NCBI GenBank assembly: GCA_013139755.1
Contig: WTAG01000563.1
Coordinates: forward strand, 1-7,254
Reading direction: 5' to 3'
DNA length: 7,254 bases
Source: Methylomarinum sp.
GTDB lineage: Bacteria; Pseudomonadota; Gammaproteobacteria; Methylococcales; Methylomonadaceae
This document shows, in pieces, positions 1 to 6,744 of the stretch (position 1 is its first letter; each line of letters starts with the position of its first letter). The notes under the pieces were generated by a model. The model had not been told where the DNA came from, made no database searches, and worked only from the letters and a program-made list of their open reading frames with translations. The position numbers were made by a program, and so were the translations under genes.

Positions 1-538
1 GCGAACTGAACTGAGATGACAGCTTCATGGTGATGGGCAGGGAAACATGGCTACGTAACTCGGTTAATAAGTTTATATAACGATCTTCAACTTGTTGGCT
101 ACTCATTTCAATATCAGCAGCAATAAAATAGACATTTAGTTCCAGTGCATCAGTTCCGGCCTGTTGCAGCGCTTTGCCATACTCAATCCAGCCATCAGAA
201 TGTGTACCATTAAGGCTGGCGATAATAGGAATATCAAGCTGGGACTTTAGTTGCTGTAACTTTTGCAGATAACGATCCTGATAACTTGTAAATTCTACGG
301 GTGAGGGATGAAAGCTATCCGCTTCGGCATGACCTATGTCTTGTTGATGAAAAAACCGATCATGTCGTCTGGATTCAGCTTCTATGCCTTCTTCAAATAA
401 AGAGTGCATGACCAAGGCCGATGCACCGGCATCTTCAAGTTGTTTGGCGGAGTCCAGGTCTTTACTGAGTGGTGAGGCTGATGGTACCAGCGGGTTTTTG
501 AGTGTCAGGCCAAGATAGTCTGTGCTTAAGTTTGCCAT
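1..538 (-). CDS. Dihydroorotate dehydrogenase-like flavoprotein, 3' end outside the window
   Basis: Partial gene: 179 codons are visible from the ATG at 538 and the frame is open to the left edge; relatives are around 330 residues, so roughly the N-terminal half is present. Seen: an N-terminal NPLVPSASPLS segment (residues 15-25), an IIASLNG strand (105-111), ALELNVYF (131-138) and ITMKLS (169-174). These match the FMN-binding TIM barrel of class 1 dihydroorotate dehydrogenases, the lysine of MKLS being the usual FMN-contacting lysine. Known: this subgroup, annotated 'dihydroorotate dehydrogenase-like', is separate from the pyrimidine enzyme PyrD; its substrate is not established. The start follows the tail stop of nifJ (541-543) by 2 bases, and its Shine-Dalgarno AGGA (548-551) lies within the nifJ tail, so coupled translation with nifJ is likely. 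Inference: a redox partner of PFOR metabolism rather than pyrimidine synthesis. Confidence 0.85.
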   Translation of the reverse strand, partial: MANLSTDYLGLTLKNPLVPSASPLSKDLDSAKQLEDAGASALVMHSLFEEGIEAESRRHDRFFHQQDIGHAEADSFHPSPVEFTSYQDRYLQKLQQLKSQLDIPIIASLNGTHSDGWIEYGKALQQAGTDALELNVYFIAADIEMSSQQVEDRYINLLTELRSHVSLPITMKLSSQFSS

Positions 539-540
539 GT

Positions 541-699
541 CTATAATTCCTGTGATGTTTGTTTGCTTGTAGCCTTAACCGCTGCAACCTTGGCGCTGTC
601 GGACCAGTCCAGTTCAGCAAGTTGTTGGTAATAGTGATAGCGATGGTTGACATCACGTTGTGCCTGAGCCAAAAATCGTTCAGCATTTTCGGGGTGAGT
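541..699 (-). pseudogene. nifJ: Stranded C-terminal tail of nifJ beyond an in-frame amber codon
   Basis: Directly after the TAG at 700-702 the nifJ frame stays open for 52 codons and then stops at TAG (541-543). The translation begins THPENAERFLAQAQRDV, continues through HRYHYYQQLAEL and ends TSKQTSQEL. The HPE-x-AE-x-x-LAQAQ-x-DV pattern followed by an aromatic 'YQQLA' resembles the ordinary end of bacterial PFOR chains, so this is the natural C-terminus and not random read-through. With it the protein would be 1208 residues, within the usual NifJ range; without it 1155. There are no further stops or frameshifts, and the tail abuts the next gene with only 2 bases between, which argues that the disruption is very recent, artefactual, or tolerated by read-through. 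It has no start signal of its own. Confidence 0.8.
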
Positions 700-3600
700 C
701 TACCAAAGCATATCAAAACGTGTTTCGGTACGGATGAAGTCTTGATAGGGAATAGATGGTGGCTCAGAATCAAGATGCATTGGGTTTTTACCTTGTTTTA
801 TTTTGTTCGGATCAAAACGAAACAGAGGCCAATGACCACTTTTTACTGCTAGTTGCTGTTGCTGGTGATTGTTAGACAAGTCTATACCGTGAGCAATACA
901 GGGTGAGTAGGCAATAATCAATGACGGGCCTTGATGCGCTTCTGCTTCCAGAAAGGCACGTAATGTTTGAGTGTCTTTGCCCGCATAGGCGACATGAGCC
1001 ACGTAGACATTTTCATAATCCATGGCAAGCAGGGCGAGGTCTTTCTTGGCTGTTGCTTTACCGCTAGCAGAAAATTTGGCAACCGCACCGCGTGGCGTGG
1101 CTTTAGATGTTTGTCCGCCAGTGTTGGAATAGACTTCTGTATCTAAAACCAGAATATTGACATTACGACCGCTAGCCAGCACATGATCCAGTCCACCATA
1201 ACCGATATCATACGCCCAGCCATCACCACCGATGATCCAGACACTTTTTTTGCATAGGTTACCGGCGAGCTGTGTCAGTTTTGTTGCGGTAGGTGAGTCA
1301 ATGGATTGCAGTTGCTGACGTAACAGTTCAACACGCTGACGTTGCTCATATATACCGGCTTCACCGGATTGATTGGCATTAACTAGATCGTCAACCAGTT
1401 CGGAGTTCAGCTGTGGTTTCAGTTGCATTAACAATTCATGAGCATATTCACTGTGCTTATCTATAGCGACTCGGATACCCAGACCGAATTCGGCATTGTC
1501 TTCAAATAATGAGTTATTCCATGCAGGCCCATGACCTTCAGGGTTTTTAGTCCAAGGTGTAGTGGGCAAGTTACCGCCATAAATAGAAGAACAGCCCGTG
1601 GCATTAGCTACCACCATACGATCACCAAACAATTGGCTAGCGAGTTTGATATAGGGTGTTTCACCACAACCGGCACAGGCACCGGAAAATTCAAACAAAG
1701 GCTGCATTACCATGGAGCCTTTGATGGTGGCGACTTTGAGTTGTCGGCGATCATATTCCGGTAGTGACAAGAAATAATCCCAGTTTTGGCGTTCCGGCTG
1801 TCTTAGAGGCTGTATGTTTGCCATATTGAGTGCCTTGCGGCTAGCATTGGTTTTATCACGTATGGGACAAATATCAACACACAGACCACAGCCAGTACAA
1901 TCTTCGGGGGATACCTGATAACTCATTACCAGATCTGCTGGAAAATCTTTGCCCAATACCGGCGTATATTTGAATGTTTCTGGTACTTTTGCCAGATCAT
2001 TGATTGGAAATAGCTTGCTACGAATAACTGCATGGGGGCAGACCATGACACATTTGCCACATTGGGTGCATAAATCCGTTTCCCAAACCGGAATTTCCAG
2101 TGCCAGGTTGCGTTTTTCATAGGCGGCAGTACCTAATGGAAAGCTGCCATCGGCAGGAAAAAAACTGACAGGAATGGCGTTGCCCTGGCCAGCAATAATC
2201 TTGGCAGTAACCTTACGAACAAACTCTGGTGCTGATTCAGGTACGAGAGAATGTAACTCAATCTGGCTGGATATCTGCTGGGGAATGTTAATTAAGTGTA
2301 AATCAGCCAAGGTTTCATCAATGGCTTTGAAGTTTAATTCGACCATCCGTTTATTTTTTCTGCCATAGGTTTTTTCCACAGCGTGTTTGATAGCTGTAAT
2401 GGCTTTGTCTTTTGCTAAGATCCCTGAAATAGCAAAAAAGCAGGTTTGCATAATGGTATTGATGCGTTTTGCCATACCTGTTTTTTCTGCAACGGCGTAG
2501 GCATCAATGCTGTATACCTTGATCTGTTTGTCGATAATTTGCTGTTGCATTTTTTTTGTCAGCGTAGCCCAGACATCTTTAGCATCAGCTGGTGAGTTAA
2601 GCAGAAATACAGCACCGTCTGCCGCCATATCAAGCATGTTATAACGTTCTATGAAAACAGGTTGGTGACAGGCAACAAAGTTGGCATCGTTGTTAGCTAT
2701 CAGATAGCTAGAGTGGATGGGTTCAGAACCAAACCGCAGGTGCGAAATCGTAACCGCACCCGATTTTTTTGAATCATAAACAAAATAACCTTGCGCATAG
2801 AGTTCGGTACTATCACCAATAATTTTGATACTGTTTTTGTTGGCACTGACGGTACCATCACTGCCTAACCCATAAAATATGGCCTGAAAATTATTGTGAT
2901 GAGCATCGGTACGAAAATCTGGGTTCCAGTCCAGACTATGAAATTCAACATCATCATCAATGCCGATAGTGAAATGATTTTTCAGCTTAGCCTGGGTTAA
3001 ATGATCAAAAACAGCTTTGACCATGGCGGGTGTAAATTCCTTGGAAGAAAGTCCATAACGCCCACCAATAACTTTTGGTATTCCGATAAATTTATTTCCA
3101 TCAGAGCAACAATGTTGAGCAATCGCAGTTACCACATCTTTATATAGCGGTTCACCATCGGCACCGGGTTCTTTGGTGCGATCTAACACGGCTATGCGGC
3201 TGCAACTGGCAGGTAAAGCAGCGATTAATGCTTCAGCTGAAAATGGGCGATAAAACCTGACTTTAATCGTGCCAACAGATTCGCCCTGTTTAACTAGATA
3301 ATTAACGGTTTCTTCGACAGTTTCTGCGCCTGATCCCATCAGGATGATCACATGCTTGGCTTCCATGTCACCAATATAATCAAACAGCTGGTAATAGCGA
3401 CCGGTCAGTTTGGCAAAACGATCCATCGTCGCTTGCATGATGGCTGGCATATTGCTGTAATAGGGATTAACCGATTCACGTGCCTGAAAATAGACATCAG
3501 GGTTTTGCGAACTACCACGCAACACGGGGTGTTCAGGTGATAAACCACGGTTACGGTGTGCTTGCACCCAGTCATCGTTGATCATAGCATGATAGATACT

Positions 3601-4167
3601 GTCATCAAATGAGGTGATTTTGGCAATTTCATGCGAGGTACGAAAACCATCAAAAAAATGCAGAATAGGTATTCGGCTTTCCAGACTGGCAGCAGTAGCA
3701 ATTAATGCAAAGTCCATCACCTCTTGTGGTGAGTTTGCTGCCAGCATGGCAAAGCCCGTCATTCTGGCAGCCATAACATCGCTGTGATCACCAAAAATTG
3801 ATAAGGCCTGACAAGCCAGAGAGCGTGAAGCAATGTGGAATACTGTTGGCGTTAATTCACCGGCAATTTTGTACATATTGGGCAGCATCAACAGCAAACC
3901 TTGTGATGCGGTAAAGGTGGTGGTTAATGCTCCTGCCTGTAGTGCACCATGTATGGCTCCTGCTGCACCGCCTTCTGATTGCATTTCGATGATTTCTGGC
4001 ACAGTTCCCCAGAGATTGCTTTGACCACGAGAAGACCATTCGTCAGCTACTTCGCCCATGGGGGATGCAGGGGTGATGGGATAGATAGCAATAACTTCAT
4101 TCAGTTTATGAGCGACAGTGGCTGCTGCCTGGTTGCCATCTATCATTAACATTGTGGGTTTTGACAT
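700..4167 (-). CDS. nifJ: Pyruvate:ferredoxin (flavodoxin) oxidoreductase, single-chain PFOR, with premature amber stop
   Basis: Catalyses pyruvate + CoA + oxidised ferredoxin/flavodoxin to acetyl-CoA + CO2 + reduced carrier in the cytoplasm. The 1155 visible residues show the single-chain domain order: TPP pyrimidine domain with YPITP (29-33), E65 and R115; domain II with KEPGADGEPLYKDV (332-345); the gamma-type domain with GLGSDGTVSANKNSIK (433-448); the EKR linker motif (684-686); a two-cluster ferredoxin domain (C700, C703, C706, C710 and C757, C760, C763, C767); and the catalytic TPP domain with GDG (981-983) and N1015. The proximal-cluster cysteines C831, C834, C859 and C1090 have the same spacing (3, 25, 231) as recalled for Desulfovibrio africanus PFOR. 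Start: ATG with AAGG (4175-4178) seven bases upstream, 9 bases after amrA. Odd: TAG at 700-702 interrupts a frame that continues for 52 family-like codons. Direction in vivo (oxidation or pyruvate synthesis) and the carrier cannot be told from sequence; no nif genes are nearby, so nitrogen fixation is not implied. Confidence 0.95.
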   Translation of the reverse strand: MSKPTMLMIDGNQAAATVAHKLNEVIAIYPITPASPMGEVADEWSSRGQSNLWGTVPEIIEMQSEGGAAGAIHGALQAGALTTTFTASQGLLLMLPNMYKIAGELTPTVFHIASRSLACQALSIFGDHSDVMAARMTGFAMLAANSPQEVMDFALIATAASLESRIPILHFFDGFRTSHEIAKITSFDDSIYHAMINDDWVQAHRNRGLSPEHPVLRGSSQNPDVYFQARESVNPYYSNMPAIMQATMDRFAKLTGRYYQLFDYIGDMEAKHVIILMGSGAETVEETVNYLVKQGESVGTIKVRFYRPFSAEALIAALPASCSRIAVLDRTKEPGADGEPLYKDVVTAIAQHCCSDGNKFIGIPKVIGGRYGLSSKEFTPAMVKAVFDHLTQAKLKNHFTIGIDDDVEFHSLDWNPDFRTDAHHNNFQAIFYGLGSDGTVSANKNSIKIIGDSTELYAQGYFVYDSKKSGAVTISHLRFGSEPIHSSYLIANNDANFVACHQPVFIERYNMLDMAADGAVFLLNSPADAKDVWATLTKKMQQQIIDKQIKVYSIDAYAVAEKTGMAKRINTIMQTCFFAISGILAKDKAITAIKHAVEKTYGRKNKRMVELNFKAIDETLADLHLINIPQQISSQIELHSLVPESAPEFVRKVTAKIIAGQGNAIPVSFFPADGSFPLGTAAYEKRNLALEIPVWETDLCTQCGKCVMVCPHAVIRSKLFPINDLAKVPETFKYTPVLGKDFPADLVMSYQVSPEDCTGCGLCVDICPIRDKTNASRKALNMANIQPLRQPERQNWDYFLSLPEYDRRQLKVATIKGSMVMQPLFEFSGACAGCGETPYIKLASQLFGDRMVVANATGCSSIYGGNLPTTPWTKNPEGHGPAWNNSLFEDNAEFGLGIRVAIDKHSEYAHELLMQLKPQLNSELVDDLVNANQSGEAGIYEQRQRVELLRQQLQSIDSPTATKLTQLAGNLCKKSVWIIGGDGWAYDIGYGGLDHVLASGRNVNILVLDTEVYSNTGGQTSKATPRGAVAKFSASGKATAKKDLALLAMDYENVYVAHVAYAGKDTQTLRAFLEAEAHQGPSLIIAYSPCIAHGIDLSNNHQQQQLAVKSGHWPLFRFDPNKIKQGKNPMHLDSEPPSIPYQDFIRTETRFDMLW

Positions 4168-4176
4168 GTCTATACC

Positions 4177-4746
4177 TTAAATAAACTGGTTTGATCTGAA
4201 ACTTTCAGTGGTGTAACGATAGGCACGAAGATCATCAGACCAATAACTTGCCGGTAATCCCGCTTTAATTTTCAGGTGATGAACAAAATCAGTTGGCTTG
4301 GGTAAAGATTCCCATACTGATGGCAAAAATGTAGCTCGATGCCGACCATCATCTAGAATCAGTCCATCAATATCAGGACGTAGCTGTTTGATTAAATCAG
4401 CTTCAGATTGACAGGGTATTGCTTCAGATGGGCTGAGAATAGAAAGGTGAATACTAAGATCATTCAATTCATCTTCAGTTAACGGTGGGAATCGCGGATC
4501 TGAGAAAGCAGCTGCATAGCTGTTGTAAGCAATGTCTTCAATCAGTGGCCTGCACGCTTCTAACATGCCGATACAGCCTCGTAGTTGTCCATATTTTTCT
4601 AAGGTGACAAAAGTGGCGCGAAGTACCGTTAGCTCATCTTCTATTTCTGAAATATCTACAGGTAGGGGAGAGGCTTTTTTTAAACCATGTTCGATAGATG
4701 CTCTGGCAATATTTTTTAAAGTTTTTCGCTGACTATCAGTGAGCAT
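4177..4746 (-). CDS. amrA: AmmeMemoRadiSam system protein A (AMMECR1 family)
   Basis: A 189-residue protein, typical for bacterial and archaeal AMMECR1 homologues and nearly all of it the one domain. Seen: the hallmark LRGCIG at residues 55-60, preceded by FVTLEKYGQ, and FSDPRFPPLTEDEL (81-94), the second highly conserved block; also FLPSVWESLP around 144-153. No signal peptide or membrane segment. Known: the family includes the human AMMECR1 protein; its biochemical activity is not established, and in prokaryotes it recurs with a MEMO protein and a radical SAM enzyme. The start is fixed by a very strong GAGGAGG (4754-4760) seven bases upstream, inside the end of amrB. The ATG shares its A with the amrB TAA stop (TAATG), a classic termination-reinitiation junction. 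Its own TAA stop (4177-4179) overlaps the nifJ Shine-Dalgarno region, tying its expression to PFOR. Confidence 0.93.
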   Translation of the reverse strand: MLTDSQRKTLKNIARASIEHGLKKASPLPVDISEIEDELTVLRATFVTLEKYGQLRGCIGMLEACRPLIEDIAYNSYAAAFSDPRFPPLTEDELNDLSIHLSILSPSEAIPCQSEADLIKQLRPDIDGLILDDGRHRATFLPSVWESLPKPTDFVHHLKIKAGLPASYWSDDLRAYRYTTESFRSNQFI

Positions 4747-5549
4747 TAGGGTGCCTCCTCAAATAAATAAGCACCATATCCAACCACACTGTCTTTGCTG
4801 CCGGCAGTGTCCCCCGAGTTTCTTAAATCAATAATGGATGGGGTAAGTGTGTGTTGTTGAGCAAACTTGAGCAGGCCGTTGACACCAATACAGCCACAGG
4901 CATTATCTGAATGGATGGCATCAAAATCAAGTTCAATAATAGCTTGAGATGTGGCATTATCTAACTGTTGTGCTGTTTGATAGTCATGAAAGTGACTAAG
5001 ATCAGAGCTAATCACAATCAAAGTTTCAGGACCACCCCAGAGGGTTTCGATGACTTGTGCTACCAGTTCAGGGCTGGCATTGCCTGCGACAATGGGAATA
5101 ATGGAAAAATCATCTAATACTTGTTGTAAAAAGGGCAATTGAACTTCAACGCTATGTTCAGCCGCATGGGCTTGATCAAACACATGAACGCCATCGATAT
5201 GTAAAAGCTTAGCCTGAGATTCTTGGTCTAATGGGATGTCACCCAGTGGCGTTTCAAAATAATCTGCACTGCTAAGAGCCAAGCCATTAAAGCCAACGCG
5301 ATGTGATGGCCCAATGATGACAACATGTTTAATAATCTGCCGGACAGGTTGTAAATATTGATAGACACTGGCAGCAATTTCTCCCGAATAGATAAACCCA
5401 GCGTGAGGAACAATGATGGCTTTTGGGATATGTCGCTCGGGTGTTAATACGGCTTGAGCAAGTTGCTGGCTAACCATATCATGAAGGACATCAGGGTTAT
5501 CTGGATAAAATAAACCTGCAACAGCAGTGGGACGTGTATTTTTTTTCAT
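4746..5549 (-). CDS. amrB: AmmeMemoRadiSam system protein B (MEMO family)
   Basis: A 267-residue MEMO-family protein of usual length. Motifs in order: AGLFYP (11-16), VPHAGFIYSG (47-56), IIGPSH (78-83), EHSVEVQLPFLQ (131-142), SSDLSHF (181-187), NACGC (216-220) and NSGDTAGSKDSVVGYGA (244-260). H49, H83 and C218 correspond by position to the metal-binding His-His-Cys set described for human MEMO1; C220 is a nearby additional cysteine. The fold is related to class III extradiol dioxygenases, but the family's reaction is not settled. No signal peptide or membrane segment. The ATG is preceded by AGAGG (5556-5560) with a 6-base spacer. It is the first gene of the leftward set and faces amrS across a short divergent region; its TAA stop overlaps the amrA start by one base. 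Confidence 0.93.
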   Translation of the reverse strand: MKKNTRPTAVAGLFYPDNPDVLHDMVSQQLAQAVLTPERHIPKAIIVPHAGFIYSGEIAASVYQYLQPVRQIIKHVVIIGPSHRVGFNGLALSSADYFETPLGDIPLDQESQAKLLHIDGVHVFDQAHAAEHSVEVQLPFLQQVLDDFSIIPIVAGNASPELVAQVIETLWGGPETLIVISSDLSHFHDYQTAQQLDNATSQAIIELDFDAIHSDNACGCIGVNGLLKFAQQHTLTPSIIDLRNSGDTAGSKDSVVGYGAYLFEEAP

Positions 5550-5584
5550 TACAGACCTCTAATTAAAGGAGTAATATTGACCTT

Positions 5585-5613
5585 AGTATCCTGCTGGATT
5601 TGCATGATTGCAA
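5585..5613 (-). promoter_or_regulatory. Candidate sigma-70 promoter for the amrB-amrA-nifJ-DHOD operon
   Basis: On the minus strand TTGCAA (5608-5613, 4 of 6 to TTGACA) and GATACT (5585-5590, 4 of 6 to TATAAT) are separated by exactly 17 bases. Transcription would start near 5578, leaving a leader of about 28 bases before the amrB ATG at 5549. The match is moderate and is by-eye only; its position is sensible for the operon. The -35 overlaps the inverted repeat at 5600-5613, so a regulator bound there would interfere with or modify this promoter. Confidence 0.4.
5600..5613. promoter_or_regulatory. 14-base inverted repeat with FNR/CRP-type spacing
   Basis: The sequence TTGCA-TGAT-TGCAA has perfect 5-base arms and a 4-base centre. 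The arm length and spacing are those of FNR/CRP-superfamily sites (FNR: TTGAT-N4-ATCAA), although the inner half-site bases differ. Placement between the divergent genes and over the candidate leftward -35 supports an operator role. By chance a 5-base-arm repeat at some position in 100 bases is not rare, so this is only suggestive. Confidence 0.35.
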
Positions 5614-5646
5614 GATCTTTTTTAATGATAATGGCGAGGTGTGACG

Positions 5647-6744
5647 ATGAATAATAACGTTGGTACTAGCGAAACATTTCCTGATGCAGTAGAAACCCAA
5701 TATTGGCACTTACTTGATGATAATCGGATTCAGTGCGATCTCTGTCCCCGGTTTTGTAAATTACATGAAGGTCAGCGTGGTTTGTGTTTTATTCGCGCTA
5801 ATCAGAATAATGCCATTGTATTGACCTCTTGGGGACGTTCCAGTGGATTTGCTGTTGATCCGATAGAAAAAAAACCGCTTAATCATTTCTTACCAGGTAC
5901 ACCTGTACTTTCTTTTGGAACAGCGGGTTGCAATCTCGCTTGTAAATTCTGCCAGAACTGGGACATCAGTAAATCAAGAGAAATGGATTCATTGATGTCG
6001 AAAGCAACACCAGTAATGATTGCCGATAAGGCGAAGGAATTACATTGCCGCAGTGTCGCTTATACTTATAACGATCCGGTCATTTTTCACGAATATGCCA
6101 TTGATGTCGCTCAAGCTTGCACCGAGCAGGGTATTAAAAATGTCGCAGTGACAGCAGGCTATGTTTGCCCCGAACCTCGTGCAGAATTTTACCAGTATAT
6201 GGATGCGGCTAATGTTGACCTTAAGGCATTTACAGAAAGTTTCTATCACAAATTAACTGGCTCTCATCTACAACCCGTACTTGAGACACTAGAGTATATA
6301 AAGCATGAAACTAATGTCTGGCTGGAACTGACTACACTAATTATACCGGAAGAAAATGACTCTGAAGCTGAAATTCAGCAGATGACTCAGTGGGTAGTCG
6401 AGCATTTGGGGCCAGATGTACCGATGCATTTCTCGGTATTTCATCCTGACTGGAAAATGTTGAATAAATCATCAACACCACCAGAAACAGTCAAAAGAGC
6501 AAGGCAGATTGCATTAGATAATGGGGTGAAATATGCCTATGTAGGTAATATGCATGACAAGGCGGGGGACAGTACCTGGTGTCATCATTGTGGCGCATTG
6601 TTGATTGGGCGAGATTGGTATGAACTCAGCGAATGGCAGCTGACAGCAGACGGTAAATGTTTGGCTTGTGGTACCGAATGTGCCGGCATATTTGAATCTC
6701 AACCGGGAAACTGGGGGGCCAGACGATTGGCTGTGAATATTTAA
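5647..6744 (+). CDS. amrS: AmmeMemoRadiSam system radical SAM enzyme
   Basis: A 365-residue radical SAM protein (numbering from the ATG at 5647). The SAM/4Fe-4S motif is GCNLACKFCQNW, with C95, C99 and C102 in CxxxCxxC spacing. An N-terminal cysteine block CDLCPRFC...GQRGLC (C30, C33, C37, C47) and the VDPIEKKPLNHFLPGT segment (70-85) are typical of AmrS and of its relatives among pyruvate formate-lyase activating enzymes. YTYNDPVIFHEY (139-150) is another family block. The C-terminus has CHHCG (312-316) and CLACGTEC (338-345), a probable zinc-ribbon-like or extra cluster site. Substrate unknown. Start choice: GAGGTG (5636-5641) gives a good 5-base spacer to the ATG at 5647, whereas the in-frame GTG at 5641 lies inside that ribosome site; an in-frame TAA at 5629 rules out starts further up. 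Transcribed away from amrB/amrA, so the trio is split across a shared control region. Confidence 0.93.
   Translation: MNNNVGTSETFPDAVETQYWHLLDDNRIQCDLCPRFCKLHEGQRGLCFIRANQNNAIVLTSWGRSSGFAVDPIEKKPLNHFLPGTPVLSFGTAGCNLACKFCQNWDISKSREMDSLMSKATPVMIADKAKELHCRSVAYTYNDPVIFHEYAIDVAQACTEQGIKNVAVTAGYVCPEPRAEFYQYMDAANVDLKAFTESFYHKLTGSHLQPVLETLEYIKHETNVWLELTTLIIPEENDSEAEIQQMTQWVVEHLGPDVPMHFSVFHPDWKMLNKSSTPPETVKRARQIALDNGVKYAYVGNMHDKAGDSTWCHHCGALLIGRDWYELSEWQLTADGKCLACGTECAGIFESQPGNWGARRLAVNI

Follow-up and report, generated by a model that had tools for sequence, protein, structure and literature searches.

The nifJ gene carried by a 7,254-nucleotide stretch of Methylomarinum sp. DNA (hereafter the window) is interrupted near its end by an in-frame TAG (amber) codon that is absent from every relative examined. 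The tail beyond it is intact and the gene shows no other damage. Since the TAG is not shared by these relatives, an ordinary mutation of recent date or an error in the sequence is the most likely cause, not a programmed switch. We favour, as the probable explanation, a recent single-base nonsense mutation from CAG (Gln) to TAG at nifJ codon 1156 in the sequenced strain or population. The features concerned are as follows.

541..4167, minus strand: nifJ, pyruvate:ferredoxin (flavodoxin) oxidoreductase (PFOR; TIGR02176), interrupted by one in-frame TAG.
700..702, minus strand: premature TAG at codon 1156, where most relatives have Gln.
544..699, minus strand: tail of 52 codons beyond the TAG, matching the end of PFOR domain VI colinearly and continued by a short variable extension.
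541..543, minus strand: second TAG, at the usual end position of the family.
2..538, minus strand: start of a dihydroorotate dehydrogenase-like gene (NF005741), downstream of nifJ and cut by the window end.
4177-4746, minus strand: AmmeMemoRadiSam protein A, above the NCBIfam cut-off.
4746-5549, minus strand: AmmeMemoRadiSam protein B, above the NCBIfam cut-off.
5641-6744, plus strand: radical SAM enzyme, above the NCBIfam cut-off.

The minus-strand nifJ frame, numbered from its ATG at 4167, extends over 1155 residues to the TAG at 700-702. A preliminary description of this DNA had reported an amber codon near the nifJ end, an open stretch of 52 codons after it and a second TAG 2 bases before the next gene. 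Frame reading bears this out, bases 539-540 being the whole spacer between the second TAG (541-543) and the ATG of the next gene (536-538). Against the TIGR02176 profile, the 1155 residues before the TAG reach 1717.1 bits (cut-off 911.35), covering model positions 1-1136 of 1167. The part preceding the TAG thus exceeds the curated cut-off and belongs to the NifJ/PFOR family. All 19 cysteines of the whole frame lie upstream of the amber codon and none in the tail. The matched TPP-binding domain also precedes the stop, in agreement with the earlier statement that the cluster cysteines and the TPP part do so.

The genes for AmmeMemoRadiSam A and B lie upstream of nifJ on the same strand and, together with the radical SAM gene on the plus strand, adjoin it (window 4177-6744). 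All three of these genes are complete and terminate in TAA. The downstream gene reaches 226.6 bits with NF005741 (cut-off 303), the match covering profile positions 1-179 of 335; it presumably falls short because the window end cuts it. An AGGA motif is located inside the nifJ tail, just upstream of the start of this gene (window 536-555, minus strand). Were translation to stop at 700, 161 bases (699-539) would remain untranslated ahead of that start, which might reduce coupling.

To place the amber codon among relatives, 7999 candidate proteins (those sharing most words) were scored and the best 120 listed. These records are clustered at 90% identity, which could conceal a truncated or same-strain member. 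The best match listed, P0002, which represents 3 sequences, is 98% identical over its whole length (1208 aa) and has Gln at the amber position. Among 119 of the 120 listed proteins this column is occupied by Q (85), H (30), R (2) and Y (2; three if P0034, left out of the counts, is included), and by Q in 19 of the 21 nearest. P0034 is 80% identical to the window protein and only 1153 aa long; from about residue 1141 it ends in some 13 residues that bear no relation to PFOR, perhaps the result of a frameshift or a chimeric contig. This unrelated end distinguishes it from the event in the window and, as there is no stop at the amber site, it was rejected as a second truncation.

At the DNA level, related loci comprise 80 kept of 177 confirmed in a scan of genome contigs and 30 from 121 genomes searched around the relative G001 (84 of which gave a match). 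The amber site is reached in 106 of these 110 loci (L061, L062, L065 and L067 do not extend to it). An exact match of 200 bases identifies at least 13 of the 30 added loci as duplicates of members of the first 80, so that 93 loci remain. The codons observed at the site in the 106 loci are CAA (58), CGC (14), CAC (7), CAG (6), CGT (5), CGA (5), CAT (4), AGA (3), CGG (2), AAA (1) and TAT (1). The six CAG codons, some of them in duplicates, include three of the first 76 loci and those of L001 and L002. No stop codon occurs at the site in any of the 106 loci (93 after removal of recognised duplicates). A TAG common to several species had been proposed as support for read-through, and the conserved stop expected of a programmed amber read-through gene is lacking in these loci. 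The TAG had also been described as one change away from CAG or AAG. The distribution of residues in the protein column favours CAG over AAG; a single locus has a Lys codon, AAA.

The tail aligns without gaps with solved single-chain PFORs up to its residue 1185 (6cin) or 1198 (7plm and 1b0p). Codon 1156 pairs with residue 1139 of the 1232-residue 7plm from Desulfovibrio africanus, where the alignment reaches 1181, and with residue 1141 of the 1171-residue 6cin, which we take to be a Moorella enzyme, where it reaches 1170. The mean share of the majority letter in the 119 relatives is 86% at residues 1-1155, 81% at 1157-1190 and 63% at 1191-1208. Together with the gap-free alignment, the second value is what justifies the earlier impression of a normal PFOR end. 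In 104 of 106 related loci the frame continues for at least 34 further codons and the stop falls 35 to 72 codons beyond the site (53 in the window); in L039 and L047 no stop occurs within the stretch read, which ends shortly after the match. Judged from these alignments, the TAG would chiefly remove the last part of domain VI, with about 20 variable residues, and not the protective arm. The lost part is probably structural, since even the shorter solved PFOR (6cin) retains the stretch up to query residue 1185 and the frame goes on in 104 of the 106 loci.

Apart from the TAG, nifJ shows no sign of decay. Before the TAG, 19 of 1155 residues differ between the window and P0002, and after it 2 of 52, a higher rate in the tail but one that rests on tiny numbers. 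Of 652 columns conserved to 95% or more in the other rows, 6 show a departure in the window, and P0002 shares all 6, as expected of a young stop. No departure at these columns is specific to the window; gene decay was accordingly rejected and the earlier remark of no other damage holds. The lack of decay points to either a recent change or an error. No frameshift was found elsewhere in nifJ and no long homopolymer at the amber site.

The preliminary description had left four options, of which nonsense mutation and error fit the evidence; suppression and read-through retain in their favour only the intact tail. A programmed or suppressor-tRNA read-through giving two PFOR lengths would account for this intact, in-frame tail, and the base following the TAG is A, a context that may favour suppression. 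However, the TAG is not conserved, and we regard such read-through as highly improbable. No CTA anticodon was found among 37 tRNAs of the relative G004 (ARAGORN reading; 150 of 249 first-look candidates scored, overlapping loci counted once), a set that is incomplete because some expected tRNAs such as tRNA-Ile are missing, nor among the part of the found tRNAs that was read in G001-G003. No tRNA gene was found inside the window. None of four near genomes (relatives of other species) has PylS above the cut-off. Weak matches occur in each of the four, but 13 of 14 control genomes also give matches, and one control exceeds the cut-off. The stretch 710-620, around and after the TAG, gives a fold with z -1.60, its stability being equalled in 9 of 200 shuffles, which was taken as no signal, and a structured read-through element was rejected on this unremarkable value. 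Reassignment of TAG was also rejected because this codon ends nifJ in some relatives: among the first 76 loci the end codon was read in 67, with TGA in 54, TAA in 9 and TAG in 4. A stable and selected short PFOR, adapted to the loss of its tail, is the least credible reading of all. The position of all cysteines and of the matched TPP-binding domain before the stop would allow it, and P0034 is also short, though with an unrelated end. Against it, query-spanning matches among those listed have open frames of at least 1194 aa (apparently measured from stop to stop), the frame runs on past the site in nearly all loci, and even the 1171-residue solved enzyme retains the residues up to query 1185. 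Even taken together, programmed read-through and a selected short form are very unlikely.

An error of sequencing or assembly, or a metagenome consensus that took up a minority variant, is a serious if less probable alternative, in which the nifJ of the organism would be normal and full-length. It fits nearly as well as a mutation: the stop occurs in the window sequence alone among those examined, the remainder of the gene is free of decay, and the four nearest genome records (L001, L002, L003 and L066) are Methylococcales or Methylomonas metagenome-assembled genomes. The lack of a long homopolymer and of a frameshift, and the scores of the three neighbouring complete genes above their family cut-offs, speak weakly against an error. 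The nonsense mutation that we favour would have arisen from an ancestral CAG by a C-to-T transition, a single step at a Gln codon, the sequenced base being real. The Gln of P0002 and the CAG codons of two of the four nearest loci, L001 (83% identity) and L002 (81%), support this origin, but the other two, L066 (83%) and L003 (79%), have the Arg codons CGC and AGA. Translation would then end at the TAG and yield a PFOR of 1155 residues without its last 53 (the domain VI end and the short extension). This loss would probably weaken folding or dimer packing rather than provide a useful short form. There is a slight chance, overlapping with the mutation itself, that the TAG is real but leaky in this strain: full-length PFOR, made as a minority product, would then preserve activity, and the population could tolerate the mutation.

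Such an event is ordinary. A literature search found no paper on a nifJ nonsense mutation and, for premature stops, read-through and amber codons in bacteria, none evidently about such a nifJ case. The importance of the finding is small beyond annotation, where automated gene calling will yield a PFOR of 1155 aa and overlook the end usual for the family. The case also warns against taking one sequence with an orderly tail as evidence of read-through. A mutation that proved real would be a natural test of whether PFOR tolerates losing the end of domain VI.

It had been suggested, as speculation, that two PFOR forms could differ in oxygen tolerance. According to a figure legend in PMC8945911, domain VI of the D. 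africanus PFOR covers residues 786-1170 and domain VII residues 1171-1232, and a Cys1195-Cys1212 bridge is named in the same paper. An additional C-terminal domain that covers the proximal cluster and confers unusual oxygen stability is described in PMC5020499. The window protein resembles the D. africanus enzyme (1b0p, 1kek, 7plm) and can be aligned with it up to residue 1181 of the 1232 in 7plm, where the alignment stops. The domain VII arm (1171-1232, with its bridge) is a D. africanus feature to which the nifJ tail offers, at most, a short equivalent that is largely unaligned and lacks cysteine. On the same domain boundaries, the window protein does not appear to be an oxygen-protected PFOR of the domain VII type. 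Because the tail corresponds in the alignment for the most part to the end of domain VI and is free of cysteine, the oxygen idea is unsupported, and a role of the tail in oxygen tolerance was rejected on these domain limits. The closest likeness in family domains, cluster cysteines and position of the frame end is to the single-chain NifJ (TIGR02176), from which the window gene differs by an in-frame TAG in place of the usual Gln, His or Arg codon, 53 codons before the end.
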